Shown piece after piece: positions 4,616 to 47,882 of a stretch of DNA of 64,000 nucleotides. Position numbers and translations under genes: made by a program. The stretch's first letter is position 1, and each line of letters starts with the position of its first letter. The stretch covers positions 511,001 through 575,000 of the forward strand of contig JAJLTO010000010.1 in assembly GCA_030568195.1 (NCBI GenBank), written 5' to 3'. Source of the DNA: Dipodascopsis uninucleata var. uninucleata (lineage: Eukaryota; Ascomycota; Lipomycetes; Lipomycetales; Lipomycetaceae). The notes under the pieces are model-generated. The model was not told where the DNA came from and searched no databases. It saw only the letters and a program-made list of their open reading frames with translations.

Positions 4616-6386
4616 ATGGAGTCCGAAAGCAAGACTTATCCGTCCAATGTCACGGCGATAGATGCTGGATATGGTGTTGTTCAGGATGTAGCACCTACAT
4701 CGGTGTTTGGAAAAATCGCCAAGTTCTTTGAGCTTGATTCTGCTCATAAAGATAGAAATAGTAATGATGGTATGTATAGCCAAGGTCTTGTTTCTCTTTT
4801 ATGTTTTTAAGATTGTATGTCTCATTAACGTCAATTTTATGTGACTAGATTTGGATCCTGTTCCTCCTGAGAAGCGTACCTGGCATTCTCGACACTATGC
4901 TCTCTTCTGGATTTCCGATCATTTGTCAGTCTCCGGTTTCCGTGCTGCTGCTTCTGTCATCCAAGTTGGTCTTTCATGGAAGTTGGCGTTGGTCTGTATT
5001 GCCTTGGCTAATGTAATCCAAGGTGTTTGGATTACATGGAATGGTATTGTGGGTGCTAGATATCATATTCCCTTCTCCATTCAGAGTCGTGCATCTTTTG
5101 GCATGTATTTCTCATATGTTATGATTCTTATGCGTATGATTGTCGGTATTTTCTGGTATGGTATTCAAGCATATACTGGAGCAGAGTGTGTACGATCTAT
5201 GATATACGCCATCTGGCCTTCATTTCACAACGTCAAAAATACACTTCCCGCGAGTGCACATATTGACACCCAAATGATGACAGCTTATGTTATATATTTC
5301 TTGTTCTGTCTCCCTTTGCATTACGTTGGTATCCAGAAAATCAAATGGCTCTTCTTGGTAAAGTCTATTACTACTCCAATTGTTTGCTTTGCTTTACTTG
5401 GATGGACTATTAGAGAGGCTGGATTCGGCAAGTCTTCTCTCTTTAGCACTGGAAATACTGTTCATGGCTCGAAACTTGGCTGGGCATTCATGGGTAGTTT
5501 GTACTCTAATATTGGTGGCGGTGTTACTCTTATGGTCAACGCTCCAGATTATAGTAGATACGCAACCAAGGTGTCATCGACTTTCGCTACTGCTTGGGCT
5601 GTACCAGTCACTGCAACAGTTATGGCCTTCATTGGTTGCGTCGTTGCTGCCGGATCTAAGGTTCTTTATGGTGCAATTCTCTGGGATCCTTTGTTAATCA
5701 TTGATCACTGGACTTCTCGTGGTGGACGTGCCGCTGCTTTCTTCTGCGCCTTTAGCTTTTTCCTTTCACAGCTTGGTCTTAACGTTGCTGCAAACTCCCT
5801 TGCTGCCGCCAATGATATGAACTGTTTGTTTCCTCGTTATGTTAATCTTCGCCGAGGACAATTCATCGCCGCGTTCCTTGGTTCATGGGCTCTTACACCC
5901 TGGAATATTTTGACATCTGCTCCAGCATTCTTGAACTTCATGTCTGGATACTCTGTCTGGCTTGGACCTCTCTGTGGTATTTTGATCTCCGACTACTATT
6001 TCGTTCATCATGGAAAGTACAATACTTTTGAATTATATAACAGAAATGGTATCTACAGATACTTTTATGGTTTTAACTGGAGAGCTGCTCTAGCTTTTAC
6101 CATTGGTTGGGTTCCGCTTTTGCCAGGTTTCTTACCCACTGTGTCTAGCATTCAGGTCAGCATTCAAATGGTGCATTTATATAATCTCGGCTTCTTTTAT
6201 GGATTTGGTGCTGCGTGTCTTTCATATGCTGTCATCTGTTACTTCTTTCCTGCTAAGGAGACTTATCTTGAAAAGGGCGTGTTTGTCGATGATGTCGTTT
6301 ACTCTGAGGAGTCCAACAGTTCTTACGATATCGAGCTAAGGGCTAATCAGCCTAAGCCAGAATACAGTCAGGAGAAGGTATACTAG
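4616..6386 (+). CDS. NCS1-family permease (uracil/allantoin/thiamine-type), one intron
   Basis: Plasma-membrane symporter of the nucleobase:cation symporter-1 family. Joining exons 4616-4769 and 4849-6386 (intron 4770-4848, GTATGT donor, CTAG acceptor, ATTAACG upstream) gives 563 aa, normal for fungal Fur/Thi/Dal4 proteins. The splice restores DLDPVPPEKRTW, the conserved cytosolic segment before TM1. Further family blocks are FWISDHLSVSGFRAAAS, SRASFGMY, NIGGGVTLMVNAPDYSRYA and the C-terminal DYYFVHHGKY. About twelve hydrophobic segments follow. The acidic tail is rich in Ser and Glu. The substrate cannot be told from sequence alone; uracil, allantoin, uridine, thiamine and nicotinamide riboside carriers all share these blocks. 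Neighbouring genes do not narrow it down. Confidence 0.9.
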
Positions 6387-7397
6387 ATAGTATTATAACT
6401 ACAAGAATGTGTATAGACTAGTATTTGATAATGTATTTTATGATTCTTTTATTTGATTATGATTTCATTTCCTATGGCTGAAGAAAGCTTTGTGGTTATA
6501 ATACCTTCGTAGTATTTTTTACACTTAAAAAGCCTACATTCACAAAGATACATTTACATTTTTCACATTAAGAGTCGTTCATTAACTTAACAGCATATCA
6601 AGTATGTGCAGTCCTCTAAGTGTGTATTGGGCTCGTGAAGAGTGATGTGTCTGAACATTAGCCGGCTTAGATCTTACCACTTCTGACGTTATACAGACTG
6701 TTTATGTAATTTATGCACACTTACAAATAACACTGCATTTCTAACAAGCCCTCTATTACCAGTTCAGAGACATGAGAAGTATATGTTGCATTTCTTAGCA
6801 ATATAGTTGTATGACTGCTAGTAACTTCATAAGTATGGATCTGTCATTAGGATAATATGCCTTCGAAATCAGGTCTTCCTGAACCAGGTGATGCGGATAG
6901 CGTTTTGCGATCTTGTTTTAGTAAGGTAACAGCATGAAAAAATCCAGGTAATGGTCACAATTCTTACTGGCGGTGGACTTTTTAAGAAGCTCCCGAGTGC
7001 TGAGTAACGTGATCTTATCTTGCTGGATTAAGAACCTCCTGAGTTCGCAGTAGGGTAAAACCTATATCAGGTTTTGTAACCTTGGGGTTCATTGATAAGG
7101 GAGCAAGCTAATACTAAATAGGAAAATTTATTCCACATTGCAAGTAATACTGACCCGACGACCCTGAACAAATGGACCGCTCTCTTCTCGAAGAGTACAG
7201 GCGCCATTGGCCCACATTGATAGCCTTCGAGATTGATTATAGCCTTTCTTGAGTCGTATTTATATGTATCTCACCCAGGCGCACTTTTTTGTTCCTCTTT
7301 CTTTTCTTTGTTCAGGTTGCATATCGTTTCATCACGCATAACAGACTATCTGGGACTATCAATTGAGCTCAATTGACACCATACCGCATCTTTAATA
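6387..7397. other. Spacer and promoter region upstream of the MetX-like gene
   Basis: This 1.0 kb stretch has no supported reading frame. The last 140 bases carry a TATTTATATG element and a pyrimidine-rich tract near 7287-7310, typical of a yeast core promoter feeding the gene at 7398. Confidence 0.5.
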
Positions 7398-8387
7398 ATG
7401 GCCCAATATAACAAATTCGATTTGGAGCTTCCTCTCAAGTGCGGAGCTACACTCCCAGCATTCTTGACCTACAAGACTCTTGGTGATCCTAGTAACCCAG
7501 CTGTCATGATCCCAACTTGTTATACTGGTCGTATCGCTGGTACTATGAACTACCTTACTGGTGAAGATAATGCTGTCTCACCAAAAAAGTTCTTCGTTAT
7601 CATTGTTGGTTTGCTTGGTGGTTCGGAGTCTTCTTCCCCGTCTAATCAGCCTGCTCCATTCAACGGCAAGAACTTTCCAGAGACTGTCTACGAAGACAAC
7701 ATCAATGCCCAGGTTAAGTTGTTAGAGCACCTTGGAATTAAGAAGTTGTACGCTTACATTGGTTATTCTATGGGTGGTCAGCAAGCTTACTATTTCGCTA
7801 CCATGTACCCTGACTTGGTTCAGAAGATTGTTCCAGTTGCTTCCTCGGCGAAAACTTCTGGATTCAACTGGAACTTCTTAGAGGGTGTCAAGTCTACTGT
7901 TAAGGCTTCCTCTGATTTCTACACTGGTGACTATAAGGAGCCAGTTATTGTTGGAACTAAGGCTTTCGGCCGCGTCTACTCGAACTGGGCTCTTTCATAT
8001 GAATGGTTCGAGACTGAGGCCTGGAAGGAGGTTGGATTTGAGTCTTCGGAAGCTTACATGCTCGAAGACTGGGAGAAGCGTTTGACTACTTGGGACGCTA
8101 ATGACCTCCTCCAGATGGCTGTTACTTGGCAGAAGGGTGATATCTCCTCCTTCTTCGATGGTGATCTCAACAAAGCTTTGGCTTCCATCAAGGCTGATGT
8201 TTTAGTTATGCCATCCCGAACCGATCAGTACTTCAGATGGGAGGCTAGTGTCAAGGAGGCTGAGGGACTGAAGTCTGGTACTCTAGCTATCATTGAGACT
8301 GTCTGGGGTCATATTGCTGGTGGTGGTGCTGATGCAAAGGCTAACGTCTGGATTAACGAGCAAGTCAACAAACTTTTCTCATTTTAA
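7398..8387 (+). CDS. Alpha/beta hydrolase, homoserine O-acetyltransferase (MetX)-like
   Basis: Uninterrupted 329-aa protein of the MetX-like branch of alpha/beta hydrolases. The nucleophile elbow is GYSMGG with Ser124. Asp276 (SRTDQYF) and His305 (WGHIAGG) lie at the spacing expected for the other triad members. The N-terminal block with YKTLGDPSNPAVMIP, and the oxyanion-side segment GLLGGSESSSPSNQP, are typical of this branch. It is shorter than true fungal Met2 (about 480 aa) and lacks its long lid, so a housekeeping homoserine acetyltransferase is unlikely. Fungal relatives are generic acyltransferases or esterases. There is no signal peptide, so it is probably cytosolic. The acyl donor and acceptor are unknown. 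Confidence 0.8.
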   Translation: MAQYNKFDLELPLKCGATLPAFLTYKTLGDPSNPAVMIPTCYTGRIAGTMNYLTGEDNAVSPKKFFVIIVGLLGGSESSSPSNQPAPFNGKNFPETVYEDNINAQVKLLEHLGIKKLYAYIGYSMGGQQAYYFATMYPDLVQKIVPVASSAKTSGFNWNFLEGVKSTVKASSDFYTGDYKEPVIVGTKAFGRVYSNWALSYEWFETEAWKEVGFESSEAYMLEDWEKRLTTWDANDLLQMAVTWQKGDISSFFDGDLNKALASIKADVLVMPSRTDQYFRWEASVKEAEGLKSGTLAIIETVWGHIAGGGADAKANVWINEQVNKLFSF

Positions 8388-8554
8388 ATGTAATCTCTTT
8401 TATAATCTTTTTACATAGTACTTAATGACGATTTTATGTAACCATTTATTAGTAACATGAGTTCAATTGAGAGACACTTAACAATGATTATGGGACATCG
8501 AATTCAATATTATCTACTAATTCGAACTAACAGTTCAAGCCGGAAAAAAGAGCT

Positions 8555-10394
8555 TTAAAATTTACCTGGATACCGGACTAGCAAGATTTGAAGAGCGAGA
8601 AAAACAAAGATTCCCAAGAACGACAAAGCAGATATCAGAGAGAACGCCATTAAATACTTTGGACTATCCTTAGCAGGGAAGAGGAACGCACCATAAATCG
8701 TTGCTGATGTACCAAAGCCATTTGTGAATGCAAGAGCGATGGCTCTGGCCTCATGTGGCATGTACGAATATGAGGAGGACGCATAAGCCAACGTAGCGGC
8801 TGTTGTGGACCAAACTGCTGATGTCATGAACACTAGGAGAACATATCGGGCGGTGTTATTATATACACACGTGAAGATTATGCTACACACAGTCAATACC
8901 ACCAACCAAGCTAAAGAGTTGAGATCATTGTTAGATAAATTGTTAAGCTATATAAAAGAATTACTGGAATAATCTTACCTGCGGTAACATAACCACGATA
9001 TGGTCTCAATTTTCGGTCACTGAAATAACTAGTACAAAGATTACAGACGAAAGCAACAGCATAGAGGGGCACAGTCTAGAATACCATTGTTAGTTCACGG
9101 TTTCGAGTTCCAGTTATTTGTTTTAATGTCATAGTTCGTTACCATATACTGAACTCTATTGCCAGTGTAGCCAAGACCCCCCATCAGGGTCGGATAGAAA
9201 TAGGACATGGAAGATGTTCCAGTGATGATGGCATAGCCGGTAGCAAATAATAGTGTTCTCCAGTTCCAGAGAGCGATTTTAAGAGCTTGCAAATGGGTTA
9301 CGTCAGGTTCACCTTCCCTGCGATTGACAATGCTATCATATTGAAGTCTTGCAATAGCGAGCTTCCTCTCGCGCTCATTCATATGTCTGGTCTTTGTCGG
9401 AAAGTCTAGCAATACAAGCAAAGCAACGAAAGCCTATATTATAATATAATAGTTAGTATAGAATATAAGGAAAGGTAAGAGATAGACATACAAATCCGAT
9501 TGTCATTGATCCTTCAACGATCTAAATATATGACTAGTTAGTATATACTTTCACTACAGTGCTACTAATAATGGTGTATACATACAAACAACCATCTCCA
9601 ACCAGGAATACCATGTGCGTCTTCGAGATTAGTGGTAATAGCTCCTGCTAACAAGCCTCCAAATGCACCAGCAAGGACGGGTGCAGAGATATATATACCA
9701 AATCTCATGGATTGTTCGTTTCTCTTGTACCATGACGAGAACATAAGAAGAACGCCAGGAGCGAAACCAGCTTCCGCGAGACCAACAAGAACTCTCATGC
9801 CAACTAGTTCTGGATATGTCTTAACCTTCCATATGAGAAGGGTGATAAGACCCCATGTGATCATAATTACTCCTAAGAAAATCGACGGTCTGGTCTTGGA
9901 CAGAATCATACTTTTGAAGTCATCGTGGTCAGCACTTACATTAGCGAAATTCGAGAAATTAACCAATATACTTACTTCGTAGGTATTTCAAAGCTAACAT
10001 AGAAGATAATTGCGACAATAAGGACAATAGAATATTGACCTGACGACAAATGGAGGTCTGCAGCCATTCCTGCAACTTTTGCGTTACCGACGCTAGAATT
10101 TTGTTATTAGACAGTAATTAACTAAATACTGAACGGCTGGTCTACTCACTTAATACGGTCCAAATAAGACAAAAAATACATAATGAAGATACATGGCAGA
10201 AGCAGCAAGTCAATTTTCCTAACCAACTTTTTCTCTTCGTCAGTTCCTGGTCGATAATCAGGAACTTCGAGAACGCTCTCTATCTGATGTTCAGTCTCCT
10301 TTTCATTGGTGATACCAGATTCAGCTGCCGTCGCAGCTAGCTCAGAGGCATTTTTTGTCTCGCTTGAATTTGATTTTGAAAGAAAATTAAGCAT
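8555..10394 (-). CDS. Dal5/Tna1-type anion:cation symporter (MFS), seven exons
   Basis: Major-facilitator transporter of the allantoate-permease/ACS family, 486 aa. Exons, in order of transcription: 10394-10150, 10092-9976, 9910-9586, 9521-9492, 9433-9143, 9075-8979, 8910-8555. All phases agree and each junction restores a family block: FLSYLDRINVGNAKVAGM, FEIPTNMILSKTRPS, GWRWLFIVEGSMTIGF. The fourth exon is only 30 nt. RVLVGLAEAGFAPGVLL and SMRFGIYISAP are ACS signatures. The ATG at 10394 is the first in frame. The family carries organic anions such as allantoate, nicotinate, pantothenate and, in bacteria, sugar acids. The gene is divergent from the DAK kinase, 1.7 kb away, so import of a sugar acid for the adjacent cluster is a reasonable inference, not shown. 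Confidence 0.88.
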
Positions 10395-12129
10395 TTTCAA
10401 GTTTTTCTCAGCAATAGCAAGCACTTTGTTAAACTACCAAATGGTTACTGATATCTAGCTATGGTTGAAAAGAAACAAAACATTCACACGCTTCGTGGTA
10501 GTAGTGGGTGACCAGATACATTTATATAATTTGAGGTAGTATTTTACAACACGTCACTATTAAACATTTAAACTGCGTATCGGTGCCATTTTCCCCGTGT
10601 CATCTAAACAGGACGTAGTCCCGAACGTCGAGGCTTGCGATATGTGGGGGGTGGATCAAAGCAGAATGGGTCCCGAAATGGCATCTTGGAGAGTCAACAA
10701 GGAATATCATGGTTCTTGGCGAGATACTAGCAGAAATGACTATGATATTTAAAAGTATACTTAGTACATACTTTATGGGCTTAAGCTTTCGGTAACGCCT
10801 TCCATCACTGCTGCTCGAGAGACAGAAGCTAGCTGTAGTTCGCTCAGATGTCATACTAGCAGCTGGTCTTGCTAAAATCGTGATATCTAAGTCAGCGTAG
10901 CCGCTAGACCTTAGGAGCCTCCCAGACACCACACCGGTGCTATAGCTAGGAATGATGGGCCCAACTAGTGAGCACTGCTGGATATCAATATTTGAGGCTG
11001 TGTAGTGACTGGACGAGGACTTCGTTTATCGTCGCCATACAATAGATAGCTGGTAGTCGAGAGCGGAAGTCGAGACCTGTTCTGCGGCGAGGGGCATCAA
11101 TAACTCCCTCAGATGTCGCGCCACACGATTACAATTAACGCATAGATACCGGACGCCAACTACCTAGTCTGTATGTATAATAGTTTACGTATTCTTTGTC
11201 AAGCAGGCAAAGCGGGCGAGAAAACCCCAACAGCTGCTACATAAATAGTCTTTTTTTGACCAAACCCGCAGCCAGGATAAACCTGTCCTGCATTTGTTTG
11301 CAGAGATACAGACTTTGTCGACACAGTGTGGAACTGCAACGAGGGATCAGCGAGTATCGCATTGGTCCCGAATGCCGTGCCTTCCTCAAGACTTATCAGA
11401 AATCGGCCGAGATCATAGATTACGACGCAGCAGCTATGCAGAAGAGGAGAGTGTCAGACGACAGCTACTAGCTCACTAGCTCCCTTAATCCTTATATCTT
11501 GTGTAGTCGTTGATGATGCCGACCGGGCCAAGTAGAATACAGTGCTACCCCAATTCGCGGGGGAAAGTTCAGTGTGGGGTAGCGAGACAACATGCCACAC
11601 CTTATTAGGCACAAGGTTTATGCAGCAACACGTGCGGCTTAAATTTTCGGCTTAAGATCCGGGAAGGAGAGTCTGTTTGGGAAGCATGGTAAGTACACTA
11701 GATATATTATCGGGTCACGGGCCGAAATATGCAGACATATCATCCTTATCCCACAAACATAACGCACTATTGAGCTTGGGATTAGCTTCCCCACCTTTGG
11801 CTACATTGGCAGGCACTGCGTCATAAGTACCGATTATCGGACTTGTAGTTAGTGGCGCTCTGCCTGGGCTTTAAGGACTGTAGCTGGCCAAATGGTCGTA
11901 GTTATCCCTAATGGAGTAAGAACTCTGCAAGCTTCGAGGTATTCAAAAGAGTATGATGCTGCTCTGTGAGCATTCTCTTGTGCCCATTCTATATTGTATG
12001 CCGATACATTTTGCTAGCTGCGGAGTGTGTGTATTATATTGTATGGTCAACTGAAATTATTGTCACTATAGCATACATCCGAGACCCCAGACTACCCCCC
12101 TTCAGCACTTAGCCTTCCAAAGAACAAGC
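10395..12129. other. Divergent promoter between ACS transporter and DAK kinase
   Basis: This 1.7 kb region separates two genes transcribed outward. It holds no supported reading frame; frames of 90-110 codons lack motifs. It is richer in GC than other spacers and contains two direct copies of CGGCTTAA at 11635 and 11648, the second forming half of a CGG-N8-CCG site. Regulation of both flanking genes by the nearby Zn2Cys6 protein is plausible. Confidence 0.5.
11648..11661. promoter_or_regulatory. CGG-N8-CCG site in the DAK promoter
   Basis: Inverted CGG half-sites with an 8-base spacer (CGG-CTTAAGAT-CCG), 469 bases upstream of the DAK ATG. A further direct CGGCTTAA copy lies 13 bases upstream. 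Inverted CGG triplets of fixed spacing are the usual target of dimeric Zn2Cys6 proteins. The same N8 spacing recurs twice in the RpiB/dehydrogenase promoter. Confidence 0.45.
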
Positions 12130-13911
12130 ATGTCTACTAAACACTTCTTCGCGGACGCTCCCAGCCTCGTCAGCCAGAACTTGAAGGCGCTCGTCGAAAG
12201 CTATCCCGGACTCGGCCTTATCGAGGATCAACGTGTCATATATAATAAAAACCACAACTCCAACAACGTTGCTGTCATCTCTGGCGGCGGAAGCGGCCAC
12301 GAACCTGCGTGGTCAGGACTAGTTGGCGATGGTCTTCTCGCTGCTGCTGTCAACGGGCCGATCTTCGGTAGCCCTAGTGCTAAGCAGATTTTGAAGGGAA
12401 TCGACTCGGTCCCGTCAAAGAAAGGTGTCATTCTCGCAATCACCAACTACACCGGCGACAAGCTGCATTTTGGACTGGCTTGCGAAAAGGCAAAAGCAAA
12501 GTACGCAAGTAAAAATATCCCGTTCATCGTCCTTCCAGTTACAGATGACGTCGCTCTGGGCCGTAGCCGTGAAGGCTCGGTCGGCCGCCGCGGTTTGGCA
12601 GGAAACTTGCTGGTTCTCAAAGCAATGGGCGCTGCTGCGGCTCAGTCCCTCGAGTTAGACCAAGTCGTGTCTATCGGCTCGTCTGTCAACGCCAATCTTG
12701 TTACTATCGGCTCCTCACTTGATCACTGCCATGTTCCTGGCAGGCAGAACCATGAGACGCTTCCCGACGATACCTGTGTGATCGGTATGGGCATCCACAA
12801 TGAGCCCGGATTCAAGAAGCTGTCGCCCATGCCTGCTACGGACGTGCTCTTGACAGAGATGATTCGATATCTCGTTGACCCTACAGATGCAGAGCGAGCA
12901 TACGTCAAGTTTGAACCTACGGACTCTGTTGTTATGCTGGTTAATAACTTTGGGGGTCTCTCGGGTTTGGAGCTTGGTGCTCTCACGTATCAGTCCTTCA
13001 CTGCCTTGCGAAAGGCTTGGAAGATAGATCCCTCTCGAGTTTTCTACGGAAGCTTCGAGTCATCTCTCAATGCACCTGGTTTCTCTGTTTCGTTGTTGAA
13101 TGTAACGAAGGCTGCTGCTGAGGCTGAAATCTCTGAGGCAGAGCTCTTTGCTTTCCTGGACGACCCTACATCCGCTCCGTCGTGGCCCAATGTTGTGCGC
13201 ACGCCAGTCGGAGGCAGCTACTTGAATGCCGATGCCGGTAACGCATCAGAGGCAGATGACGCTGTGTCATACAGCGCCGACCTGTACGTTGATCCTACCA
13301 AGGCTGCTAAGGTTGTTGAAACCGGATTTCAGCGAGCAGTAGAAGCAGAACCAAATTTGACTAAATGGGACATGATCATGGGAGACGGTGATTGCGGAGA
13401 CGGTGTCAAGAGCATGTCACTCGCCGTTCTGGAAGGTCTCAAGTCGGATGAGTCTAAGAAGGAGTCTATGATGAAAATCCTTGATACTATTTCAACCGCT
13501 GTTGATGACATGGGAGGTACTCTTGGTGCCATTCTTGGTATCTTCGTTGCATCGTATACTAGCTCCATGGCGAAGCGCATTCAGCGTGGCGGCCTCTTGG
13601 ACGAAGGCATTTTCGCTGAGTGCTGCAGTGAGGCACTCGACAGTCTGGAGCTGCACACTAGCGCTCGTGTAGGCGACCGTACAGTTATGGATGTCATTAT
13701 TCCGTTCTGTAACATTTTCAGCGCTACGAAGAGCCTTGAGCAGGCTGTTCTTGCTGCGGAGCAGGCAGCCAACAGCACGCGTAATATGAAGCCAAAGTTT
13801 GGCCGCGCCACGTATGTCACCACGTCAGAAGACGAGGAGATGCCCCCAGATCCAGGTGCCTGGGCCATCTACGAGATTGTCAAGGGCTTTTATGATGGAA
13901 CTGTAATGTGA
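12130..13911 (+). CDS. Dihydroxyacetone/erythrulose kinase, DAK family (DhaK+DhaL fusion)
   Basis: ATP-dependent ketose kinase, 593 aa, intronless. The N-terminal DhaK domain (about 1-335) carries SGGGSGHEPA at 51-60 and GIHNEPG with His223, the residue that forms a hemiaminal with the ketone substrate in this family. The C-terminal DhaL ATP-binding domain (about 385-593) carries GDGDCGD at 418-424, whose aspartates hold Mg2+, plus MGGTLGAI at 461-468 and VGDRTVMD. Length and two-domain order match yeast Dak1/Dak2 and Yarrowia erythrulose kinase. Sequence alone does not separate dihydroxyacetone from L-/D-erythrulose as substrate. The neighbours (RpiB-type isomerase, C4-acid dehydrogenase types, Zn2Cys6 protein) favour a role in C4 metabolism over glycerol use. 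The ATG at 12130 is the first in frame. Convergent with the RpiB gene. Confidence 0.93.
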   Translation: MSTKHFFADAPSLVSQNLKALVESYPGLGLIEDQRVIYNKNHNSNNVAVISGGGSGHEPAWSGLVGDGLLAAAVNGPIFGSPSAKQILKGIDSVPSKKGVILAITNYTGDKLHFGLACEKAKAKYASKNIPFIVLPVTDDVALGRSREGSVGRRGLAGNLLVLKAMGAAAAQSLELDQVVSIGSSVNANLVTIGSSLDHCHVPGRQNHETLPDDTCVIGMGIHNEPGFKKLSPMPATDVLLTEMIRYLVDPTDAERAYVKFEPTDSVVMLVNNFGGLSGLELGALTYQSFTALRKAWKIDPSRVFYGSFESSLNAPGFSVSLLNVTKAAAEAEISEAELFAFLDDPTSAPSWPNVVRTPVGGSYLNADAGNASEADDAVSYSADLYVDPTKAAKVVETGFQRAVEAEPNLTKWDMIMGDGDCGDGVKSMSLAVLEGLKSDESKKESMMKILDTISTAVDDMGGTLGAILGIFVASYTSSMAKRIQRGGLLDEGIFAECCSEALDSLELHTSARVGDRTVMDVIIPFCNIFSATKSLEQAVLAAEQAANSTRNMKPKFGRATYVTTSEDEEMPPDPGAWAIYEIVKGFYDGTVM

Positions 13912-14267
13912 AGCTATCGATGTAATGAATGCACTTATGTGCCGTGCCATAGGGACGGAGATATATATCAGGTTGGAGTTTTTAGTAGCTTTATATTTAA
14001 TCTTAATATATTACCAAATTCAAATTAACCACACAATAAAGTGAACGACGTAGTATTTTATATAGTACGATGAAAAGAATGTAGTACCGACCATGGACTA
14101 ACTAGGATCACAGTGATTAATTATTATTATTTTCCTGATCTCATGACCTACAGCGGCCAGACAGGTTTGCATGAGAGTAAACAACAAACAAAAAAGCGCG
14201 ACATTATGGATGTAAAAAGGCAAGCATGGGAGGAGGAGACAAGGCAAAAGGGAAGACGCTTCGCTGT
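13912..14267. terminator. Convergent 3' region between DAK and RpiB genes
   Basis: This 356-base gap lies between two convergent genes. It holds AT-rich tracts (TATATTTAATCTTAATATAT near 13990) suitable for 3' end formation of both transcripts and no supported reading frame. Confidence 0.4.
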
Positions 14268-14747
14268 CTATGCAGTCAAAACTTTGGTTTTTTCATACTG
14301 CTCGATCACCGAGACCTTAGCGGCACTCGCGGATGTAGTGTCGAAGGTGTAGCTCAGCCACTCCTTAGCCAGGCGTCGCATGAGCTCACGTCCAATGACG
14401 CGCTCGCCCATACAGAGAATTTGGCAATTGTTACTGAGGATAGATCGTTCGACAGAGAAGCTGTCGTGAGCAGTGACGGCGCGGATGCCTGGCACTTTGT
14501 TGGCGGAGATGGCAACACCGAGACCTGTGCCGCAGATGAGGATACCACGGTCAGCCTTACCTTCGGCAATGAGCTCAGCAGCGCGGATAGCAACGCTTCC
14601 GTAGGACTGATTTGTGTTGTCGACGACAATCACCTCAGAGACCATTGGGTTCTTTTCGAGGTCCTCCTTCAAGACGGCTCTGTATGAGTTTCCTGCATCG
14701 TCGCTACCGATGACAACTCTGTACTTCTTTGACGAATCGAGAGTCAT
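14268..14747 (-). CDS. RpiB/LacAB-family sugar-phosphate isomerase (erythrulose-4-P isomerase type)
   Basis: Aldose-ketose isomerase of the RpiB family, 159 aa, intronless, full length. The substrate-site motif GSDDAG (14-19) replaces the GSDHAG of classical RpiB. ICGTGLG has the catalytic-type Cys72. [19 protein letters not shown] resembles the branch of EryI/DerI isomerases that convert D-erythrulose 4-phosphate to D-erythrose 4-phosphate, and the Yarrowia erythritol-cluster member, more than housekeeping ribose-5-phosphate isomerase, which in yeasts is the unrelated RpiA (Rki1). It shares an 864-base divergent promoter with the dehydrogenase at 15612 and is convergent with the DAK kinase. 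Role in C4 sugar phosphate metabolism is inferred from this and its neighbours. Confidence 0.88.
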
Positions 14748-15039
14748 TTTGTTGTAAATTGAGTATCCAGGAGAGCCCTTAGTAGTGTTTTTTAAAGATA
14801 ACCGACAGATATAGGGCAGATGCTGATCTATTGCTTGAGACCTGAGCTATGTGCTAGTAAGTATGGAGCAACTTTCTTGCGATGATATACGGTATAATGG
14901 GTCAAGTTGCTGCTACATAGCTAGACTCAATATATAAACCCCCGCTCTATCGCAATAGGCCCCCATTTTTTTCTTCCTCAAAGATACCTGGAGAAAGTCC
15001 GTAGTTTCTACTGCTGCTTTTTTGCCTGCTTTCCATCTT

Positions 15040-15053
15040 CGGCTTCGTATCCG
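15040..15053. promoter_or_regulatory. CGG-N8-CCG site, RpiB-proximal
   Basis: CGG-CTTCGTAT-CCG, 293 bases from the RpiB start and 559 from the dehydrogenase start. It shares the extended half TCGGCTT with the DAK promoter site. Confidence 0.45.
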
Positions 15054-15220
15054 AGATCAGTTTCGCCCAAGTTCTTAAACGCCTATCCCACATGAGTAGC
15101 TTTGCCCACAAGAACCTAGTCCAACCCTAAAGTCTGCTTGCGCTACGTCACGGTTTCGTTAGGGCATTATGTGCAGCTAGTATAAACCTTAATCAGCAGC
15201 AAAACTCTGTCTGTCGAGGT

Positions 15221-15234
15221 CGGCGCTATGTCCG
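15221..15234. promoter_or_regulatory. CGG-N8-CCG site, dehydrogenase-proximal
   Basis: CGG-CGCTATGT-CCG, 378 bases upstream of the dehydrogenase ATG, framed by two AAACCTTAAT repeats. Same half-site orientation and spacing as the two other sites. Confidence 0.45.
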
Positions 15235-15507
15235 ATATACCCTAAACCTTAATGGATGCTGGCCTTAGTCCGAGAAATGCGGAAAAGGCATTTCAGGGCT
15301 CAACGCTACTTGAGATGGAACAGCTGCAAGCTGTTGTTGGAGTAGCTTATATATGAAGATAGAAATGGTTTTAAATGTTTCCGTATGCTGATTTACATCA
15401 TACGAAACACATTACTTCAGATCAAGTAAAGACAATTACACAGGTCAAGAGGCGATCGATCTACTGGAAACAAAGTCTGATCGTTTTCAAAGCACCCGCA
15501 CGAGACA

Positions 15508-15514
15508 TATAAAT
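15508..15514 (+). promoter_or_regulatory. TATA box of the threonate-dehydrogenase-like gene
   Basis: TATAAAT 98 bases upstream of the ATG at 15612. Confidence 0.4.
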
Positions 15515-15611
15515 CTACCTCTAGATCCTTCATTCTGTTCACGAGAACAGTCGTTTATCAGTCTATTAGCAGTCTTCTCTGCTATATTATATATCGGATA
15601 TACTAAGCAAA

Positions 15612-16874
15612 ATGGTGTCTGAAAATCCAAAGATCGGGTTCTGCGGTCTTGGTGCCATGGGCGGCGGTATGGCTCGCAACCTTGTCAAGCTTGGCTTCTC
15701 TGTCACTGGTTACGATGTCTACCCACCTGCGATCCAGAAGTTCGTTGATGCTGGAGGCGTTGCCGGCAATACGCCTGCCGCTGCTGCGCAAGATGCTGAG
15801 TTTTTTATTCTTATGGTTGTGAACGATGTCCAAGCAGACCAAGTCCTTTTTGGAGAGAATGGTGGTGTTAGCGCACTGAACAATGGCTCTACCATCATTC
15901 TTTGTTCCACTACCCCGCCTCACTATCTCCTTGATCTCAGAGAGAAGCTCGACGCAACGAGACCGGATCTCAAGTTGCTTGACTGCCCTGTTTCCGGGGG
16001 ATCTATCAGAGCAGGCAACGGAACTCTTTCGATCTTCTCGTCTGGTTCCGATGAGGATCTCGATAATGCTGATGTTGTCCTTAAGGCCATGTCAGATCCA
16101 TTATATAGGATTCCAGGTGGGATCAGCATGGGCTCCATTGCTAAAATGTGCCATCAGCACCAGGCTGTTACTAATATTATTACGGCCTCTGAGGCCATGG
16201 GACTTGCCGCTGCCGCCGGTCTCAACACACAGGAAGTTTACGATAAGGTCATGGCTAGCACTGGAGCGAGTTGGATGTTTGGTAACCGTGTTCCACATAT
16301 GCTTAAGAACGATTATCTGACTGTACATTCTGCCGTCAGCATCATCAACAAGGATGCAGGAATTGTTACTGCACACGCCAAGCGCACTTGCTTTCCTCTT
16401 ATCTTGGCTAACACTGCAGAGCAACTTTACATTCAGGGGTCATTCGCTGGTCTTACCAAGGAGGATGATGCAGGACTTGTTCGAATTTTCTTACCAAAAG
16501 ATCAAGGCGATCTCGTTGGAAACTTGACCACGTCGACTACTACTACCGGCAAGGCAGATATTACTGTTGACACTATTATTGACGTCATGTCTGCAATTCA
16601 TCTTGCATCTACCAGAGAGTGTATGGCATTTGCTGAGCACGTTGGCATGGATATTGAATTGCTCAAGGACATTATTATTAAGGGCGCTGGTCACAGTGCT
16701 ATGTTTGAATCATCGGTTTCTGAGCTCCAGAAGACAAAGTGGAACCTTAAGAGTTATGAGCCATCATATGGCGTTCTGTCCCATGCCGAGCAGGCTCTTG
16801 AGAAAGCCAGAGAGTTCAAACAGGCGTTACCGATGACTGCTGCTGCTGTCGAGCAGTTACATTTTTACTTATAA
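15612..16874 (+). CDS. Beta-hydroxyacid dehydrogenase, L-threonate dehydrogenase (LtnD/YgbJ)-like
   Basis: NAD(P)-dependent oxidation of a 2- or 3-hydroxy acid, probably a four-carbon sugar acid. 420 aa, intronless. The Rossmann motif GLGAMGGGMA (12-21) opens the protein. DCPVSGG at 124-130 is the substrate-binding block. Lys178 in AKMCHQHQ is the catalytic lysine of the family, with His at +3 where 3-hydroxyisobutyrate dehydrogenases have Asn. After the usual end near residue 300 there is a further helical segment of about 110 residues (ECMAFAEHVGMDIELLKDII) that looks like a second copy of the C-terminal NAD_binding_11 domain. This explains the length against the usual 290-310 aa. From memory, such a duplicated layout also heads large fungal fusions with kinase and aldolase modules; here it stands alone. 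Divergent from RpiB; convergent with the Zn2Cys6 gene. Confidence 0.87.
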   Translation: MVSENPKIGFCGLGAMGGGMARNLVKLGFSVTGYDVYPPAIQKFVDAGGVAGNTPAAAAQDAEFFILMVVNDVQADQVLFGENGGVSALNNGSTIILCSTTPPHYLLDLREKLDATRPDLKLLDCPVSGGSIRAGNGTLSIFSSGSDEDLDNADVVLKAMSDPLYRIPGGISMGSIAKMCHQHQAVTNIITASEAMGLAAAAGLNTQEVYDKVMASTGASWMFGNRVPHMLKNDYLTVHSAVSIINKDAGIVTAHAKRTCFPLILANTAEQLYIQGSFAGLTKEDDAGLVRIFLPKDQGDLVGNLTTSTTTTGKADITVDTIIDVMSAIHLASTRECMAFAEHVGMDIELLKDIIIKGAGHSAMFESSVSELQKTKWNLKSYEPSYGVLSHAEQALEKAREFKQALPMTAAAVEQLHFYL

Positions 16875-17150
16875 ATTTGCGATAGCCCTTAATACGTCTT
16901 TACAAACTACAACTATTTAATACTTATAAGGAATAAATAATATCTAAATGGAGATTACATGAAGTCATTGGTTTGGAGCATTATTACTTAGTACTTTTCT
17001 GATGGACAAATAAAACCAATTTGAAGTAAACAGTTTTATATTACAAAAAACTTAAATTATCCAATCATGATTCTTAAACATGTCAAAACGAACAAAAAAA
17101 TAAATTTAAAAACCTCAACCTCTCAAGAACAAGACACTCATTAAATACAT

Positions 17151-19778
17151 TTACATTCCCGTAAGATCAGTCGCCCAATTAGGAGGGAAGGATGACAAAA
17201 AATCAAAATTTTCTAGATCAAGAGGTTGCTGGAGTACCTCAGAAAGACTAGTGTTAAGAGCGGCATGTACATGACGATATCCAGTGGCATCATTATCTAT
17301 CAGTGCTCCGTTAGATCTACTTATGCTATTAGGCACTTGCATCGCTGATATAGAAGATTGTGTCGCAATTCTCGTGGAGCTAACTCTTTGATTGGCGTCA
17401 GGCTGATTGCCAAAACACTGGTTGTCACTTAGTTCGCACATCACGGTGCAATGCCGGAGCATTTCTTTCAAACCGCGGGTGATACGATTCACCAGATGCT
17501 GACGAGCACATGGTGAGCTAGCAAACACTTCCACTACTTCATTAATAGTCTGAAAGACGAGGTCTCGATCAACATCTACATGCTGTCGATATCTAGTGGC
17601 AATTTTAAGTAAAAAGACGGCAGCAAACGCGTACATGGTGTGAAAGTAGTGTGGCACGCCCACAAGAGAAGATTTTAGCTCGTCAGAATTCAGTAGTGAT
17701 CGAAGAATCGCAAATGCTGTCGCTATTGCGCAATCAGCAATGTCTTTCAAATCTCTAGACAGAGCCACACCTGTGTCCTGACTAGTATTCAGCCCTCTGA
17801 ATGCGTGAGAACAGAGATAGAATTTGGCAAACCTATAATGTAGCTTTACAGCTTCAGAAGGATAGTTCCCAAGCAGATTATGTCGCTCAAGCTTTCCAGA
17901 CCAGAGTGCAGCCCAGCGATCGACTTGAAGATTAAACTCTCTAAGCTGCGGAATAAACATGGCTGGTATCGGCTTGGTGGTGTCGAGACCATAAAGTTCT
18001 CTTGCACGACTTAAAATTAGTAGGAGATCAATATGCGAACAACATCTAAGGTCTGCATGGGTAGAAAAAGTAGATTGCATATGCTGCTCCCATTTCACAA
18101 AGTCCCTGGTGTAACCAGAGGGCGGTACTCCCTGAATAAGAGATATTTGTTCGTGCGAAAGATAAAGGAAGAGCCAGAGCTGCGACTTGACAAACCCTTC
18201 GCGACCAGTATTAGGTTGATTGAAGTGGTCGCGGTGGTACTGCATAGACATGGCCTTATGCATTCCAATTCCGCTTAGCATCCAAGTCATATCTGAGAGC
18301 CAATACGAACCAACACAAAACGCACGTATATCTTCAACGCCGATTTGTGGGCGGAAAATATACAAAGACACAAGACTGCGGAGCTCCCGACTAAGTTTCT
18401 CGTACAAGTCACTTCCATTAGGATCGTGAGCTGCTGCTACGGTACAAATACATAGCGCCAGAAGTGTAGATGTGTTTCTAACAGACTGGAAGTCTTGATA
18501 TTTCTCAAAATGACCGTAGAAGTAATGATCTAACCAAGTCATGTACGAATTGCCCAATCGCTCAGCATCTACAGGCTTTATCACTCCCCGTGCGACAAAG
18601 TCAGGTTGAATAACAATTCCTGCAGACTGTAGATCTGCACTGTCACCATTATTTCGGTATGATTTTAATCGTGTAATCTCATACAAAGACCTAATTGGAG
18701 CAGATGCCAGACTCTCAGGCGTAGGCATAGTTACACTTCCTTCAGTAACATCGTAGTCATCGTCACTAGCCTCAGTATCGCGACTACGATTATCTTCGTC
18801 AAGTGGAATTTCTGCATCCACGACAGATATAGGGCTCAGCGATAAAAGCACTCTTGTTTCATTGAGTGCCTTCTCCAGCTTCGCAATATGTTGTTTGATT
18901 GTGATATTCCACCTAATGCCGTTAGCTCTGCCACTAGGGAAAAAAAGAAAGGCAGAATAGTATAATACAAGTACTACTCAGTACAACTGCGTTATGGAAT
19001 GACTTACATTGCTTGGTCTTTGACTACACTTTGCAGTGTTTTGTTCTTGGAGCATGCTAAACCTCTATCCTGGCAACGTTTACATGGTGGCATGTCATTT
19101 TCCATGATACATTTTATCTGTAGAGCAAATAGACGTTAGACTACCAAGTCCACACAATGATCAGCATCAACATTTTCCACATACCTTCTGCTTTCTGCAT
19201 GCAGGACATGCTTTGGACTTTCTTGTAGTAAAAGAAATAAAGTCTGGATCATCGAGAACTGTGTCGTCGGGCGGCGTTCGCTCCTTAAGCAGCGTATGAC
19301 TAGAACCTGCTGCACATTTTGCAGGATTTCCGTTGGTAACCGTAGATAGATTATGTGTCTTCAGACCTTGCGATGCAGGCAGGCGTGTTAAAGAAGATAG
19401 AGCAGCCTGAACTGCGGGTTCCCCAGTGGCGATTGCGGATGACGAGAAATGTAAGGTATCGTCAGTATCGGCGTTATTCGCACTTAAAGACGCCTCGTTA
19501 ATGGACCTGACTGAATCGGCTCCGTTGCTGCTCCGTCTCTCCAGGGGCCGCATATTATCTACATCTTCGACAGAAATATCGGATCCACTGGGTTCCTTCT
19601 GGAAATGGCCTTGTACCATGTCCTGAGCTGCGTCTGTGTAGTCCTTATTTGCACGCTGCCGCTTGTTATCGCCTGTGTCTTCGTGGTCGGATGAGATTCC
19701 CACTATCCAATTTGGCGAATGTACGGCCGCACGCTCAGGGGGACTGAGCGACGTCACGTTCCAAGGACGCTTCTTCAT
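17151..19778 (-). CDS. Zn2Cys6 transcription factor, likely pathway-specific regulator
   Basis: Nuclear DNA-binding regulator, 828 aa from the first ATG. Exons 19778-19185, 19117-19008, 18933-17151; introns of 67 and 74 nt interrupt the zinc cluster region, as is common. The junction gives CPACRKQKIKC then an 8-residue loop and CKRCQDRGLAC: CX2CX6CX8CX2CX6C. A coiled-coil linker follows (IKQHIAKLEKALNE), suggesting a dimer. The rest fits the fungal middle-homology domain. The zinc cluster starts near residue 191, after a Ser/Asp-rich, probably disordered N-terminal arm; most relatives have it at the N-terminus. The frame remains open for 30 codons upstream of the ATG, so a further 5' exon cannot be excluded. 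Its place inside the C4 cluster points to control of those genes. Confidence 0.88.
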
Positions 19779-20766
19779 AGCTTCTTTAGATTGAGGGCGG
19801 AAGAAAATATGACAGAAATGCTTTACAGTACTTGTTGGCGATTTCGGTTCAGATCCGGCTCGTCCCACGCCCTTAGTAAATAAGAGTGAAGTGTACGTCG
19901 CAGACTGAATCTAAGTCTGCCTACGTTACTAATTGGGAAACTAAGCAGAAGTGCTTATAGAGAAGATTGTTCCAGGAAGAATTCAGTTGTTGATAATACT
20001 GTTCGTATGTAACACCGGGAGTTCGACGATTTTATTTCAAAGGAAAATTTGTGAAGGTGCGGTTTGCGAGACCGCTTTTAGGCTACTTGTTTTAGTTCGC
20101 CCGCCTGACCTAGGATAGGCTGTAAAAAGGCATGCACTGTCGTGAAGAGTTTGGTAGCGTAGTTGTTGTTTTGCGGGGAAGTTAACACTATGCGTGGGGA
20201 GCTTTCAGTCCTAAAGTGGGAATAGTGTACCATAGTCTCGAACCTTATTCATAACACTGCAATTTATACGCACAGTCAAAGTCTAGCTACAGTACAGTTT
20301 GTTACGCATTAGCCTGCATAGGCGCTAGAGCTAAATGCTATATACTTCCATTCAGGGCAGTGTAAGATGGCAAGGTCGGCGGAACACCGAGGTCATTACC
20401 CCAGGCGGGGCTCCCGCAGCGGAAAAGAGGTCGAGAAAACAGCGATTGCTTCATCTAAGAGTTCCTGCTCAAAAGTTATAAAGTGGAGGATGATCTTCTA
20501 GGAGTCTGCTGTGGCATAAGTTCTGAGATATCACTCTATCTGCTGGTTCATAAGAGCATCACTCACGATCTAATTCTGAAATCATAGAGCTAGAATTGAG
20601 TCTGGTCGAAAAAAGGACACGTTCTGACGCAAATACAAAATACTCCTAACTATTTATTGTTAACTACACGCTCAGTAACCATAGCTTGTGGCCGCATATA
20701 CAGGAAAGACAAACCTGTAACTACTTCTTACTACGAAAATAACTGAACTTCTGTTAACACCGCGCA
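19779..20766. other. Divergent promoter between the regulator and the SDR gene
   Basis: About 1 kb. It contains two perfect short inverted repeats: GCGGT-N7-ACCGC at 20059-20075 and GCGGG-GCT-CCCGC at 20405-20417, and CGG-N7-CCG at 20377-20389. None has the N8 spacing seen in the other cluster promoters. No supported reading frame. Confidence 0.45.
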
Positions 20767-21723
20767 ATGCCTAATATTCTCATCACCGGTGCCGCTGGTC
20801 TGGTTGGCCAGCTTATGACTGAGGAGCTCCTCTCCAAGGAAGGTTACAAGCTCACTTTGGTTGACATCGTCGAAACCCCGATCCCGAAGAAGGCCAAGTA
20901 CCCAGAGAACGCGACGTGCATTAAGGCTGATCTTGTTAAGGACGCAAAGGCTCTCGTGACTAAGGACTTGGATGCTATGTTCGTCTTTCACGGAATCATG
21001 TCGGCTGGCTCGGAAGCCAATTTCGAGCTCGGCATGGCAGTCAACCTTGACTCCACCAGAGCAATTCTCGAGGCGGTTCGTTTGCAGCGTCCTGGGCTCC
21101 GTATCGTTTACGCCTCCAGTCAGGCAGTCTTCGGTCAGCCATTTCCAGAGGTCACTGATGAGAGTGTTGTAGCTCTGCCACAGTCTTCCTACGGTGCCGA
21201 GAAGCTCGTGTGTGAGACCCTGATCAATGACTACAATCGACGTGGATTCATTGACGCCTTTGCCCTCCGCTTTCCTACAATTTGTGTTCGACCAGGAAAG
21301 CCCACTCAGGCACTCTCATCTTTTGTTTCTGGTATCATCCGAGAGCCTATGACAGGAATTCCATGCGAAGTTCCGGTCGCTGACCCTAGCTTCATTTCAT
21401 GGATCTGCTCACCACGAACTCTGGTTACCAATCTGTTGATTGCTCTGGAGTTACCGTCTGATGCCGCTCCTCCACACATTCGTGCTGTCAACCTTCCTGG
21501 CATTGGCGTTACTGTCCAGGATCAGCTTGATGCTCTTCGTGCCGTTGCTGGTGAGAGTGCTGTCGAGCTTGTCACCCTGAATGAGAGACCCGAGGTCAAG
21601 AAGATTCTTGATACTTGGCCGCCAAAGTTCGACAATTCGCTCGCTTACAAAATGGGATTCAAGCCAGATCAGCCATTTATTGATACTGTTCGCGACTTCA
21701 AGGCTATTCTTGAGTCGTCTTAG
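20767..21723 (+). CDS. Extended SDR, D-erythronate dehydrogenase (DenD)-like
   Basis: NAD-dependent oxidoreductase of the epimerase/dehydratase superfamily, 318 aa, intronless. TGAAGLVG (7-14) is the nucleotide-binding loop, Asp33 in LVDIV suits NAD specificity, SS at 117-118 and YGAEK with Tyr142/Lys146 are the catalytic residues. The segment HGIMSAGSEANFELGMAVN, followed by LDSTRAILEA, matches the substrate-side region that marks DenD-type enzymes, which oxidise D-erythronate to 2-oxo-tetronate in bacteria. Assignment to DenD rests on pattern memory and cluster context; relatives include UDP-sugar epimerases, which lack that segment. The gene is divergent from the Zn2Cys6 regulator and closes the cluster. 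Codon use is GC-rich compared with the downstream genes. Confidence 0.85.
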   Translation: MPNILITGAAGLVGQLMTEELLSKEGYKLTLVDIVETPIPKKAKYPENATCIKADLVKDAKALVTKDLDAMFVFHGIMSAGSEANFELGMAVNLDSTRAILEAVRLQRPGLRIVYASSQAVFGQPFPEVTDESVVALPQSSYGAEKLVCETLINDYNRRGFIDAFALRFPTICVRPGKPTQALSSFVSGIIREPMTGIPCEVPVADPSFISWICSPRTLVTNLLIALELPSDAAPPHIRAVNLPGIGVTVQDQLDALRAVAGESAVELVTLNERPEVKKILDTWPPKFDNSLAYKMGFKPDQPFIDTVRDFKAILESS

Positions 21724-34864: not shown

Positions 34865-36460
34865 TTTTGCAGTCAGATATCTTAATGTTAGCTATAAACG
34901 GCGTCTGACTTGATTAAAAATTGAACGGCTGGATTAGACCTTTTATAGACATGAAGGTATAGATATTAGAGACCATTAAAACTCCATGAGGTGAGAACAC
35001 GAGAACATGAAGAAGCATGAGAGAGAAAGTACGTCGCAAACTACAGAAACAGAAATAGAACATGCTATAGTAAGATACTATGAAACTAACGCGTAGCCGC
35101 ACTTGTAGAGACAAACTTTGCAAAAATAGCAACAAATTGGAATGCGGAGTACTTTTATGGAGGGCTCAGGACAATGTTACGTCATTTTCCTTTATTCGCC
35201 TCTCGTCGACTGGTAAGACTCGAGAGATTCATTTTTATGGGCGAATCTAACATAATCCCTGGGCCCTGACGAGCGGATCAGTATTCTTGGCTAGTGCTTA
35301 GCCCTTATGAATTTTAGTCAGGGTTCTCATACATCACCCTTGCAGAGCTATGCGGCATTAGTTATCCTTTGGCTAGCATGAGAGAAGTGAAACGTTATTT
35401 TATATAAAGTTATATCCAGCAACGTTAGGGTTATTAATTAAACGTTAAAAGAGAAAGGTTTTTAGTACTCTCATCAGCTTTAGTCTCACTTTCTTCAAAT
35501 CCACAGAATACTTGATGTCTTTAGCCATTAGATTGAGAATGAAGATCAATTTCTATAGAGCTATGCCCTTCACTTTTAATCATATGACAAGCATGATGAG
35601 TGAGATATGATGAGATTGGAGTGCATCAAAACTATTATCAAGGGGTTAAATAGCCCCTGGTACGTTTATACTACTCGAAACTGCTTGTTATTTAACTTCG
35701 CAAGCAATGGTAACAGGTATTTTATTACTGTCACAAACTGTAATAGTCGTCACTAATTAAGAACCCAGTTTGCCTTCTAACGTATATATTAAAAGCAGCC
35801 TAAATTGAGTAATGAATCTCTGGCGCTAGTGGTTGAAAGTGATACATGAAGAATCACAACTGATAGTTTCTAGGAATACAAAACCGTATTTCGTTCCATC
35901 GCGTGCTATTATAGAAGATATGATGTAAGACAGGATATTAAGTACCTCTACACTATACGTCCTTACAATAATGCCATAACTAATCTATACATATCTATGA
36001 TGTAATACACATCTCGTCGAGTTTATATCGCCTTTCACAGATGTGCCTATATATTTACGTTCGATAGCTGCAACCGCATACTCGCATTAAAACTTATTTC
36101 TTTCTCTTCGATAGCTCCAATAATACACCAATAACCCATAAAAATTACACCATGCCGAATATCATTCATATCTGAGTATCGACATGTGTGCATATCTGTT
36201 ACTATACTTCCTTCTTTGACTATCTCATTTAGAGCTTGACATTAATTGACTAGTTTACGTTGAGTAGCTAACGTGCTGTTTGAATGATACCTAAGAGACA
36301 CCGTAATACAGGACCTGATTTTACAAACCCACTCATGATAAAACGTCTGGTCCAATCGTACTTTCGTTCATATTATCCTTGAGGAAATATTTAATATTAG
36401 CATTGCATTCAGGTATGTAACCCATGACTAAAGAGTGGGAATAAAGTGAGGCTTTTGTTA
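34865..36460. other. AT-rich spacer upstream of the repeat protein
   Basis: This 1.6 kb stretch includes the promoter of the minus-strand gene at 34864. Reading frames reach about 75 codons without motifs. I see no RNA gene. Confidence 0.5.
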
Positions 36461-47400: not shown

Positions 47401-47882
47401 CTCCAGCGAATATCACTATATATACTGCTCCTTCTCTTAACTTTCTAGGACGCGAGAGACCACTAAAATACCGTATATCAGTAGACGATAATTCGCCTTC
47501 TATTGTTCAAGTTGTACCTTTATCGTACGAGGGGACTTTACCAGAGGGCTGGGAAGAGGCGGTGGCTAACAATGTGTGGAAAACTAGTTCTATTCATGTT
47601 TTCCAACCAGGCAAACATACGCTGAAGCTGGCAGCAATCGAGCCTGGATTGACCTTCCAAAAAATTGTGTTAGATTTTGGAGGTGTACGCGCAAGCTACT
47701 TTGGACCTCCAGAAAGCATGAGAATATTGAAGCAAGACAGAGAGTCTGACCCTCTGTACGCAATTTCATCAGCAGTTGGCATTCCTATTGCTGAAACTCT
47801 CAATATTCCTGAAGGCTTAGATTTGGATGCACAGTGGACTGTTACAAGCGATACGGCTCTACTGGGAAGAATACAATCATAG
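44463..47882 (+). CDS. GH115 alpha-glucuronidase, secreted, four exons
   Basis: Removes (4-O-methyl-)glucuronic acid from xylan side chains in characterised fungal GH115 enzymes. 1077 aa from exons 44463-45550, 45616-45912, 45979-46146 and 46202-47882. Signal peptide about 1-26. Family blocks in order: GVSPFYWWADV (200-210), SPSVKYRGFFVNDEAPAL (229-246), NYLWPAMW (281-288), DAYGIVMGTSHTEPLL, MRGYDDFEMDLKGD, DDNWGNVRRVP, YYHFDYVGDPRDYKWIN and VWIVNVGDIKPLEIP. The C-terminal part is beta-rich, as in the family. The start is set by the signal peptide; a longer TTG-led frame is ignored. The third intron has two usable acceptors 24 bases apart. Convergent with the DUF2264 gene, which suggests joint use on glucuronic-acid-bearing glycans. 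Confidence 0.93.

Follow-up and report, generated by a model that had tools for sequence, protein, structure and literature searches.

Six adjacent genes at positions 8555–21723 of a 64,000-nucleotide stretch of DNA from Dipodascopsis uninucleata var. uninucleata (assembly GCA_030568195.1, contig JAJLTO010000010.1, positions 511,001 to 575,000), hereafter the window, encode two sugar-acid dehydrogenases (LtnD-like and DenD-like), a DAK-family kinase, an RpiB-type isomerase, a transporter of the major facilitator superfamily (MFS) and a Zn2Cys6 transcription factor. An earlier note on this DNA had assigned these six identities, and both the gene positions and the family scans agreed with them. 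Compared with the literature searched, the new feature is a fungal cluster in which tetrulose genes and LtnD are accompanied by DenD, a transporter of the anion type and a Zn2Cys6 regulator. We tentatively favor the reading that the cluster is one co-regulated fungal regulon for C4 sugar acids and tetruloses with two parallel arms. The cluster supplies testable candidate genes for fungal catabolism of C4 sugar acids.

The acid dehydrogenases and the tetrulose enzymes

All four enzyme genes were single open frames, and the main catalytic residues of each family were retained. The acid half consists of the LtnD-like beta-hydroxyacid dehydrogenase (15612–16874, plus strand, 420 amino acids [aa]) and the DenD-like extended short-chain dehydrogenase/reductase (SDR; 20767–21723, plus strand, 318 aa). 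Bacterial LtnD and DenD oxidize L-threonate and D-erythronate to 2-oxo-tetronate, as the earlier note had stated and as excerpts of PMC12540250 and PMC10580937 confirm. In a tree of 57 rows, comprising the fungal protein and 56 of 64 LtnD sequences (short or near-identical ones were dropped), the fungal LtnD was sister to seven LtnDs from otn operons with support of 99/97; it was the sole fungal row and had a long branch. It retained 78 of the 129 columns conserved in operon LtnDs and 22 of the 42 columns specific to LtnD relative to other groups, including GxSWMFxNRxxHM..DY, while two of the 20 misses were gaps at a cut row end. The DenD-like SDR retained 64 of the 92 columns that do not vary among six operon DenDs, together with the SDR pair Y142 and K146; it was 42% identical to Aeromonas DenD, and its best match in the Protein Data Bank (PDB) was 2hrz (194.5 bits). 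The evidence for this half thus goes beyond family names, and the sequence comparisons support the assignment of both enzymes to the bacterial L-threonate/D-erythronate pair of one operon. No relatives of either dehydrogenase were found in the viral contigs searched.

The operons used for comparison had a recurrent composition. Aeromonas, Salmonella and Azoarcus grouped ltnD and denD with otnK, an aldolase/otnC gene and, where otnI would stand, a gene that in Salmonella is annotated as an HPr protein yet matched OtnI by tblastn. Two Rhizobium records and one Neorhizobium record (unannotated) matched all five references. The seventh locus, from Rhizobium ruizarguesonis, carried ltnD, otnI, otnK and an OtnC match and gave no DenD match.

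The fungal LtnD-like protein has a duplicated C-terminal domain at about residues 319–419. Its C-terminal 124 residues alone matched NAD_binding_11 as a second copy (41.2 bits, cut-off 30), and in a predicted structure (six sequences, mean pLDDT 76.7, pTM 0.79) the five-helix pattern of residues 173–278 recurred at 319–419, with lower confidence there. The duplication was called because of this Pfam match and the repeated pattern; the pairwise alignment of the repeat halves was weak, with a score of 48 that 5 of 2000 shuffles also reached. Among the 50 Foldseek matches listed, 3g0o (YgbJ) ranked second and had the highest identity (37%). A structural match to the long-chain form of 6-phosphogluconate dehydrogenase (6PGDH) was considered and discarded, as no match among the 50 spanned over 301 aligned columns. 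Assignment as a decarboxylating 6PGDH was likewise rejected, with Ala185 found at what we take to be the site of the 6PGDH glutamate. The tandem NAD_binding_11 copy was absent from the aligned bacterial LtnDs. As a guess, the extra helical bundle might replace a partner's domain, by analogy with long-chain 6PGDH.

The DAK-family kinase and the RpiB-type isomerase most likely form a module leading from tetrulose to erythrose-4-phosphate, as in Yarrowia. This assignment is based on the altered active site of RpiB and on a DAK without the family His and Lys, both matched in actinobacterial relatives, so that active-site residues, and not family names alone, point to the tetrulose half. The enzymes LerK, LerI and DerI convert tetruloses to erythrose-4-phosphate, according to an excerpt of PMC10733421.

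The RpiB-type isomerase (14268–14747, minus strand, 159 aa; PF02502, 136 bits), a probable D-erythrulose-4-phosphate isomerase, scored 171.2 bits with the RPI_actino model, over its cut-off of 168.2, and 151.5 bits with the DerI model, under its cut-off of 240. At least 364 relatives were present in bacterial and archaeal genomes. The best 80 loci encoded proteins 59–68% identical to the fungal one and were from Actinobacteria, judged by the organisms in the record titles. DAK lay within 4 kb of RpiB in 75 of these 80 loci, and a TIM-type isomerase lay within 6 kb in 56; the contig ended less than 1.5 kb from RpiB on one side in two of the five loci without a nearby DAK (L055 and L060). The DAK–RpiB gap in the fungus is 356 bases.

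Edwards and colleagues described a Coccidioides immitis RpiB without most of the phosphate-binding charges and without the ring-opening His, which carries Asp17, Arg105, Ser109, Ser145 and Lys148 and may isomerize shorter substrates (PMC3212906). All five residues were present in the fungal RpiB and in all 89 distinct bacterial rows, which were chosen by similarity to the query and remained from 92 after over-long or identical rows were dropped. A control aligned from the PDB, 3he8, which we take to be the Clostridium thermocellum enzyme, had His at the Asp17 and Ser109 positions. The best PDB match of the fungal RpiB was the C. immitis protein itself (3qd5 and 3sdw, 183 bits over residues 9–154). 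Since erythrose phosphate is unable to close a normal ring, the lost ring-opening His fits a C4 substrate. The altered active site and the DAK linkage would together mark a short-chain RpiB family.

The DAK-family kinase (12130–13911, plus strand, 593 aa; Dak1 310.5 bits, Dak2 124.9 bits) is a probable tetrulose (erythrulose) kinase. It retains His57, Asp110 and His223 (covalent-substrate His and Asp) and has Trp61 after HEPx and Thr105 before the NYTGD stretch, where 26vk, 1un9, 3ct4 and 2iu4, the last presumably the non-enzymatic DhaQ, have His and Lys. The bacterial alignment contained 88 of 100 rows (lengths outside 500–640 or identical sequences were dropped), and for 83 of these RpiB lay no more than 4 kb away; the Trp61 position was Phe in 86 rows, Tyr in one and a gap in one, and the Thr105 position was Gly in 87 and a gap in one. 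The fungal and actinobacterial kinases, which were 27–44% identical over the matched stretch, thus both depart from dihydroxyacetone kinases at the two sites, by different residues. A further position, 80, was Thr in all 22 RpiB-linked DAKs without a TIM match nearby and Ala or Ser in 59 of the 61 with one, which makes it a candidate marker of D- versus L-erythrulose kinases, or of two clades. The fungal residue there is Gly, so the marker decides nothing for the fungal enzyme.

Gene arrangement and promoter palindromes

The gene order is interleaved and contains three divergent gene pairs with shared upstream regions. The palindrome TCGG-N8-CCGA occurred exactly three times in the 64 kb, once between MFS and DAK (region 10395–12129, site 11710–11725) and twice between RpiB and LtnD (region 14748–15611, sites 15039–15054 and 15220–15235). 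The shorter form CGG-N8-CCG had five occurrences. Four fell within these two regions, among them 11648–11661 in the MFS/DAK region, and the fifth lay at 22344, some 620 bases beyond DenD. Over the whole window this form was not enriched (five against a shuffle mean of 3.17); the point lies in the siting. The half-site CGG-N9-CGA, which topped the promoter scan, was set aside in favor of the palindrome, since every perfect palindrome contributes two hits to it.

Paired CGG palindromes are typical for Zn2Cys6 proteins. The Zn2Cys6 gene of the cluster (17151–19778, minus strand, about 821 aa; Zn_clus 24.1 bits, cut-off 21) was modeled with introns at 19184–19118 and 19007–18913, the second being one among several open choices. 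Its product probably controls the cluster genes, partly via TCGG-N8-CCGA, as the siting of the motifs suggests. The MFS transporter (8555–10394, minus strand, 479 aa; MFS_1 109 bits) was modeled with six introns (10149–10093, 9975–9890, 9585–9522, 9491–9434, 9142–9076 and 8978–8911), a predicted splice pattern that gives the longest open product. Such introns, along with the Zn2Cys6 domain, are in keeping with a fungal source. We take it to be of the anion:cation symporter type, as in the earlier note; the D-galactonate transporter model TIGR00893 gave 165 bits, below its cut-off of 395. Among 16 frames, third-position G+C was highest in DAK, RpiB and DenD (0.53–0.62 vs. 0.34–0.51), and that of LtnD, at 0.47, was not raised.

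Linkage elsewhere and the joining of the two halves

Among 297 genomes from the order to which Salinibacterium belongs (Micrococcales, NCBI taxonomy), an LtnD-like gene was found in 48 and RpiB in 96; in the 41 genomes with both, the two lay within 5 kb in eight and within 15 kb in 13, where about 0.16 and 0.47 were expected by chance from 62 pairs in 4-Mb genomes. The LtnD query came from locus L019, which had been picked as linked and whose own genome is among the eight, and related genomes are not independent. Among the best 80 RpiB loci, LtnD-like proteins occurred in five and OtnK matches in three.

The linked loci were of several kinds, with domains checked in L019, L076 and parts of L135 and L137. 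Loci L019, L133 and L134 carried a TIM-barrel protein, LtnD-like, DAK and RpiB in this order, in operon-like sets (6413–10456, 5090–9103 and 4953–8979, respectively), in stretches where the OtnK, OtnC, OtnI and TIM-type isomerase references were unmatched; these sets possibly represent an undescribed sugar-acid pathway. DAK, RpiB, TIM, TIM-barrel and LtnD-like were present in L137–L139. In eight further loci (L076, L135, L136 and L140–L144), OtnK and an LtnD-like gene shared a stretch with DAK-RpiB-TIM. The fungus is therefore not alone in joining LtnD-like with DAK-RpiB. Among the loci examined, no other had DenD added to this set.

In the favored reading of two parallel arms, the MFS symporter would import a sugar acid, and the LtnD-like and DenD-like enzymes would use NAD+ to turn two epimeric C4 acids, of the L-threonate and D-erythronate type, into 2-oxo-tetronate, from which enzymes encoded outside the window would complete the acid arm to dihydroxyacetone phosphate. 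In the other arm, DAK would phosphorylate D-erythrulose (or L-erythrulose, provided that the genome encodes a LerI-type isomerase at another locus), and D-erythrulose-4-phosphate would be isomerized by the RpiB-type enzyme to D-erythrose-4-phosphate, which would enter the pentose phosphate pathway. We infer the substrates, the reaction directions, the pairing of regulator and sites and the presence of further acid-arm enzymes beyond the window. The eight actinobacterial loci with OtnK and LtnD-like near DAK-RpiB-TIM resemble such a two-arm arrangement. Ascorbate is degraded to L-threonate, in agreement with the earlier note, and also to L-erythrulose and C5 aldonic acids (PMC6191929). As these products span both halves, one plant-derived source could supply both.

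Several observations weigh against this reading. The bacterial C4-acid route requires OtnI, OtnK and OtnC, and a tblastn search of the window (E 1e-3) with references for these three, for the TIM-barrel protein and for the TIM-type isomerase returned no match; nor were OtnI, OtnK (DUF1537) or OtnC present among its Pfam-scanned frames. The LtnD-like protein scored 305.6 bits with the curated model NF043037, under the cut-off of 350, and the DenD-like SDR scored 307.9 bits with NF043036, under the cut-off of 325, so they are close relatives of LtnD and DenD short of the level of curated equivalence. Beside the catalytic Lys178, the fungal LtnD has His183, Gln184, Val186 and Asn188, at positions that vary little in the other rows; with only 22 of 42 LtnD-specific columns kept and a duplicated domain, its substrate may have changed. 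DAK passed the generic glycerone kinase model TIGR02361 (615 bits, over the cut-off of 575). DenD was found in none of the best 80 RpiB loci, and four other actinobacterial DenD loci gave no DAK or RpiB match. Finally, the upstream region shared by the transcription factor gene and DenD (19779–20766) contained no TCGG-N8-CCGA at zero or one mismatch; since the motif was also picked after a broad scan of many motifs, the palindromes are support and not proof.

The earlier note had taken the six genes as one C4 pathway. Each half of that claim stood, whereas their joining is not settled, given that no OtnI, OtnK or OtnC matched in the window, that the DAK and RpiB residues fit tetruloses, and that a C4 acid cannot become a tetrulose by oxidation.

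The alternative that fares best, though we consider it rather unlikely, is a linear route, in which two epimeric C5 aldonates (or branched acids, e.g., apionate) would be oxidized to a beta-keto acid that yields CO2 and erythrulose, followed by DAK and RpiB to D-erythrose-4-phosphate. Both downstream enzymes are present and fit a tetrulose, and the deviation of the fungal LtnD near the catalytic lysine would suit a changed substrate. A linear route would explain why tetrulose enzymes alone stand beside the dehydrogenases, and it would also account for the OtnK-free bacterial loci, of which the L019, L133 and L134 sets are the examples. D-Apionate breakdown reportedly ends in an erythrulose phosphate. 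In a Rhodobacteraceae strain, D-apionate has been assigned to a route through a 3-oxo acid, a kinase and a decarboxylase (excerpt of PMC11747546), and the C5 aldonic acids among the ascorbate products (PMC6191929) would offer substrates. However, many LtnD- and DenD-specific residues are retained, which favors C4 acids, and the window gave no match to a decarboxylase or a TIM-barrel protein. Activity of an LtnD or a DenD on C5 acids is not known to us, which also counts against this route.

A eukaryotic route of this kind, as yet undescribed, in which two epimeric acids are oxidized and decarboxylated to one tetrulose that DAK and a short-chain RpiB then carry to erythrose-4-phosphate, is in our judgment unlikely. 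If true, it would parallel the oxidative steps of the pentose phosphate pathway, running from acid through beta-keto acid to ketose and isomerase, with phosphorylation delayed, and the actinobacterial TIM-barrel–LtnD–DAK–RpiB sets would be its bacterial counterpart.

Two further explanations appear improbable. In the first, LtnD and DenD would make 2-oxo-tetronate, with RpiB standing in for OtnI and DAK for OtnK (or DAK acting on dihydroxyacetone after spontaneous decarboxylation) to give dihydroxyacetone phosphate. The cluster's own enzymes would then serve the C4 acids indicated by LtnD and DenD, and 3-oxo-tetronate bears the HOCH2-CO- group that DAK enzymes use by established chemistry; but DAK is without the family His and Lys, the loss of the Lys takes away rather than adds positive charge for a carboxylate, the RpiB residues are those of DAK-linked actinobacterial enzymes, and no decarboxylase matched in the window. 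An equally improbable explanation is that an erythritol/erythrulose module and acid dehydrogenases are two unrelated sets, adjacent by chance or with the dehydrogenases doing something else: fungal neighbors need not share a pathway, the shared palindrome is absent upstream of DenD, and DenD near DAK-RpiB was not seen in the other loci examined, but the interleaved order with three divergent pairs, the exact palindromes in regions spanning both halves and the actinobacterial parallel for LtnD-like/RpiB linkage all speak against it.

Surrounding genes and known systems

A MetX-like alpha/beta hydrolase gene (7398–8387; PRK07581 312.6 bits, cut-off 332) is convergent with the transporter gene; it could encode a lactonase or an esterase and lies outside the cluster as assigned. 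Genes for GH115 (two exons), DUF2264, a GDSL lipase and GH5 are crowded at 44436–54230 in a plant cell wall degrading stretch, and the position of GH115, the GDSL lipase and GH5 about 22–33 kb downstream of the cluster is consistent with plant-associated life. A 685-aa open frame (32834–34891) had no Pfam match at E 1e-4.

Every enzyme family in the cluster is already known, as are the tetrulose half as a yeast cluster type and the bacterial LtnD-DAK-RpiB linkage. The literature searched contained no report on fungal use of threonate, erythronate or apionate, and the available part of a Neurospora sugar model paper mentions neither erythritol nor erythrulose. The earlier note knew of no yeast cluster in which both halves are described as joined, and the literature searched does not contradict this, with the qualification that Yarrowia has the tetrulose half and Actinobacteria have LtnD-like with DAK-RpiB.

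Like the cluster, bacterial otn operons (ltnD-otnK-otnC-otnI-denD plus transporter) combine LtnD and DenD types with a transporter and a nearby regulator. They differ in that DAK and RpiB stand here in place of OtnI, OtnK and OtnC, which had no match in the window, and in that the C-terminal domain of LtnD is duplicated here.

The Yarrowia lipolytica erythritol cluster comprises EUF1, EYD1, EYK1 and two isomerases, with EYK1 and an RpiB-type isomerase under the regulator EUF1. On the published descriptions, both clusters join a transcription factor gene to a kinase of the DAK type and an isomerase of the RpiB type, known or predicted to act on erythrulose and D-erythrulose-4-phosphate, respectively. 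The fungal cluster described here instead has a pair of sugar-acid dehydrogenases together with an MFS transporter of the anion type; a TIM-type isomerase had no tblastn match in the window (one bacterial reference) and was absent from the scanned frames, and a polyol dehydrogenase was not recognized.

The tetrulose loci of Actinobacteria, which pair DAK with RpiB and in many cases add a TIM-type isomerase, resemble the cluster in their RpiB, 59–68% identical in the best 80 loci, and in the LtnD-like gene near DAK-RpiB in L019 and L133–L139. In contrast, their DAK is only 27–44% identical, and their LtnD-like proteins fall outside the clade of the fungal and operon LtnDs.

Arabidopsis LTD (AT1G18270), an LtnD-LtnD-OtnK-OtnC fusion, is another eukaryotic LtnD type with an internal duplication, as described in an excerpt of PMC12540250. 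LTD repeats the whole LtnD unit and has OtnK and OtnC domains, whereas the LtnD of the cluster repeats the C-terminal domain only.

The C. immitis RpiB shares the altered active site of the cluster enzyme, and the substrate of both is a prediction. The DAK neighbor, common to the actinobacterial relatives, suggests tetrulose phosphates as the substrate of such RpiB proteins and offers a candidate answer to the puzzle, raised in PMC3212906, of why the Coccidioides enzyme has lost the residues for ribose-5-phosphate.

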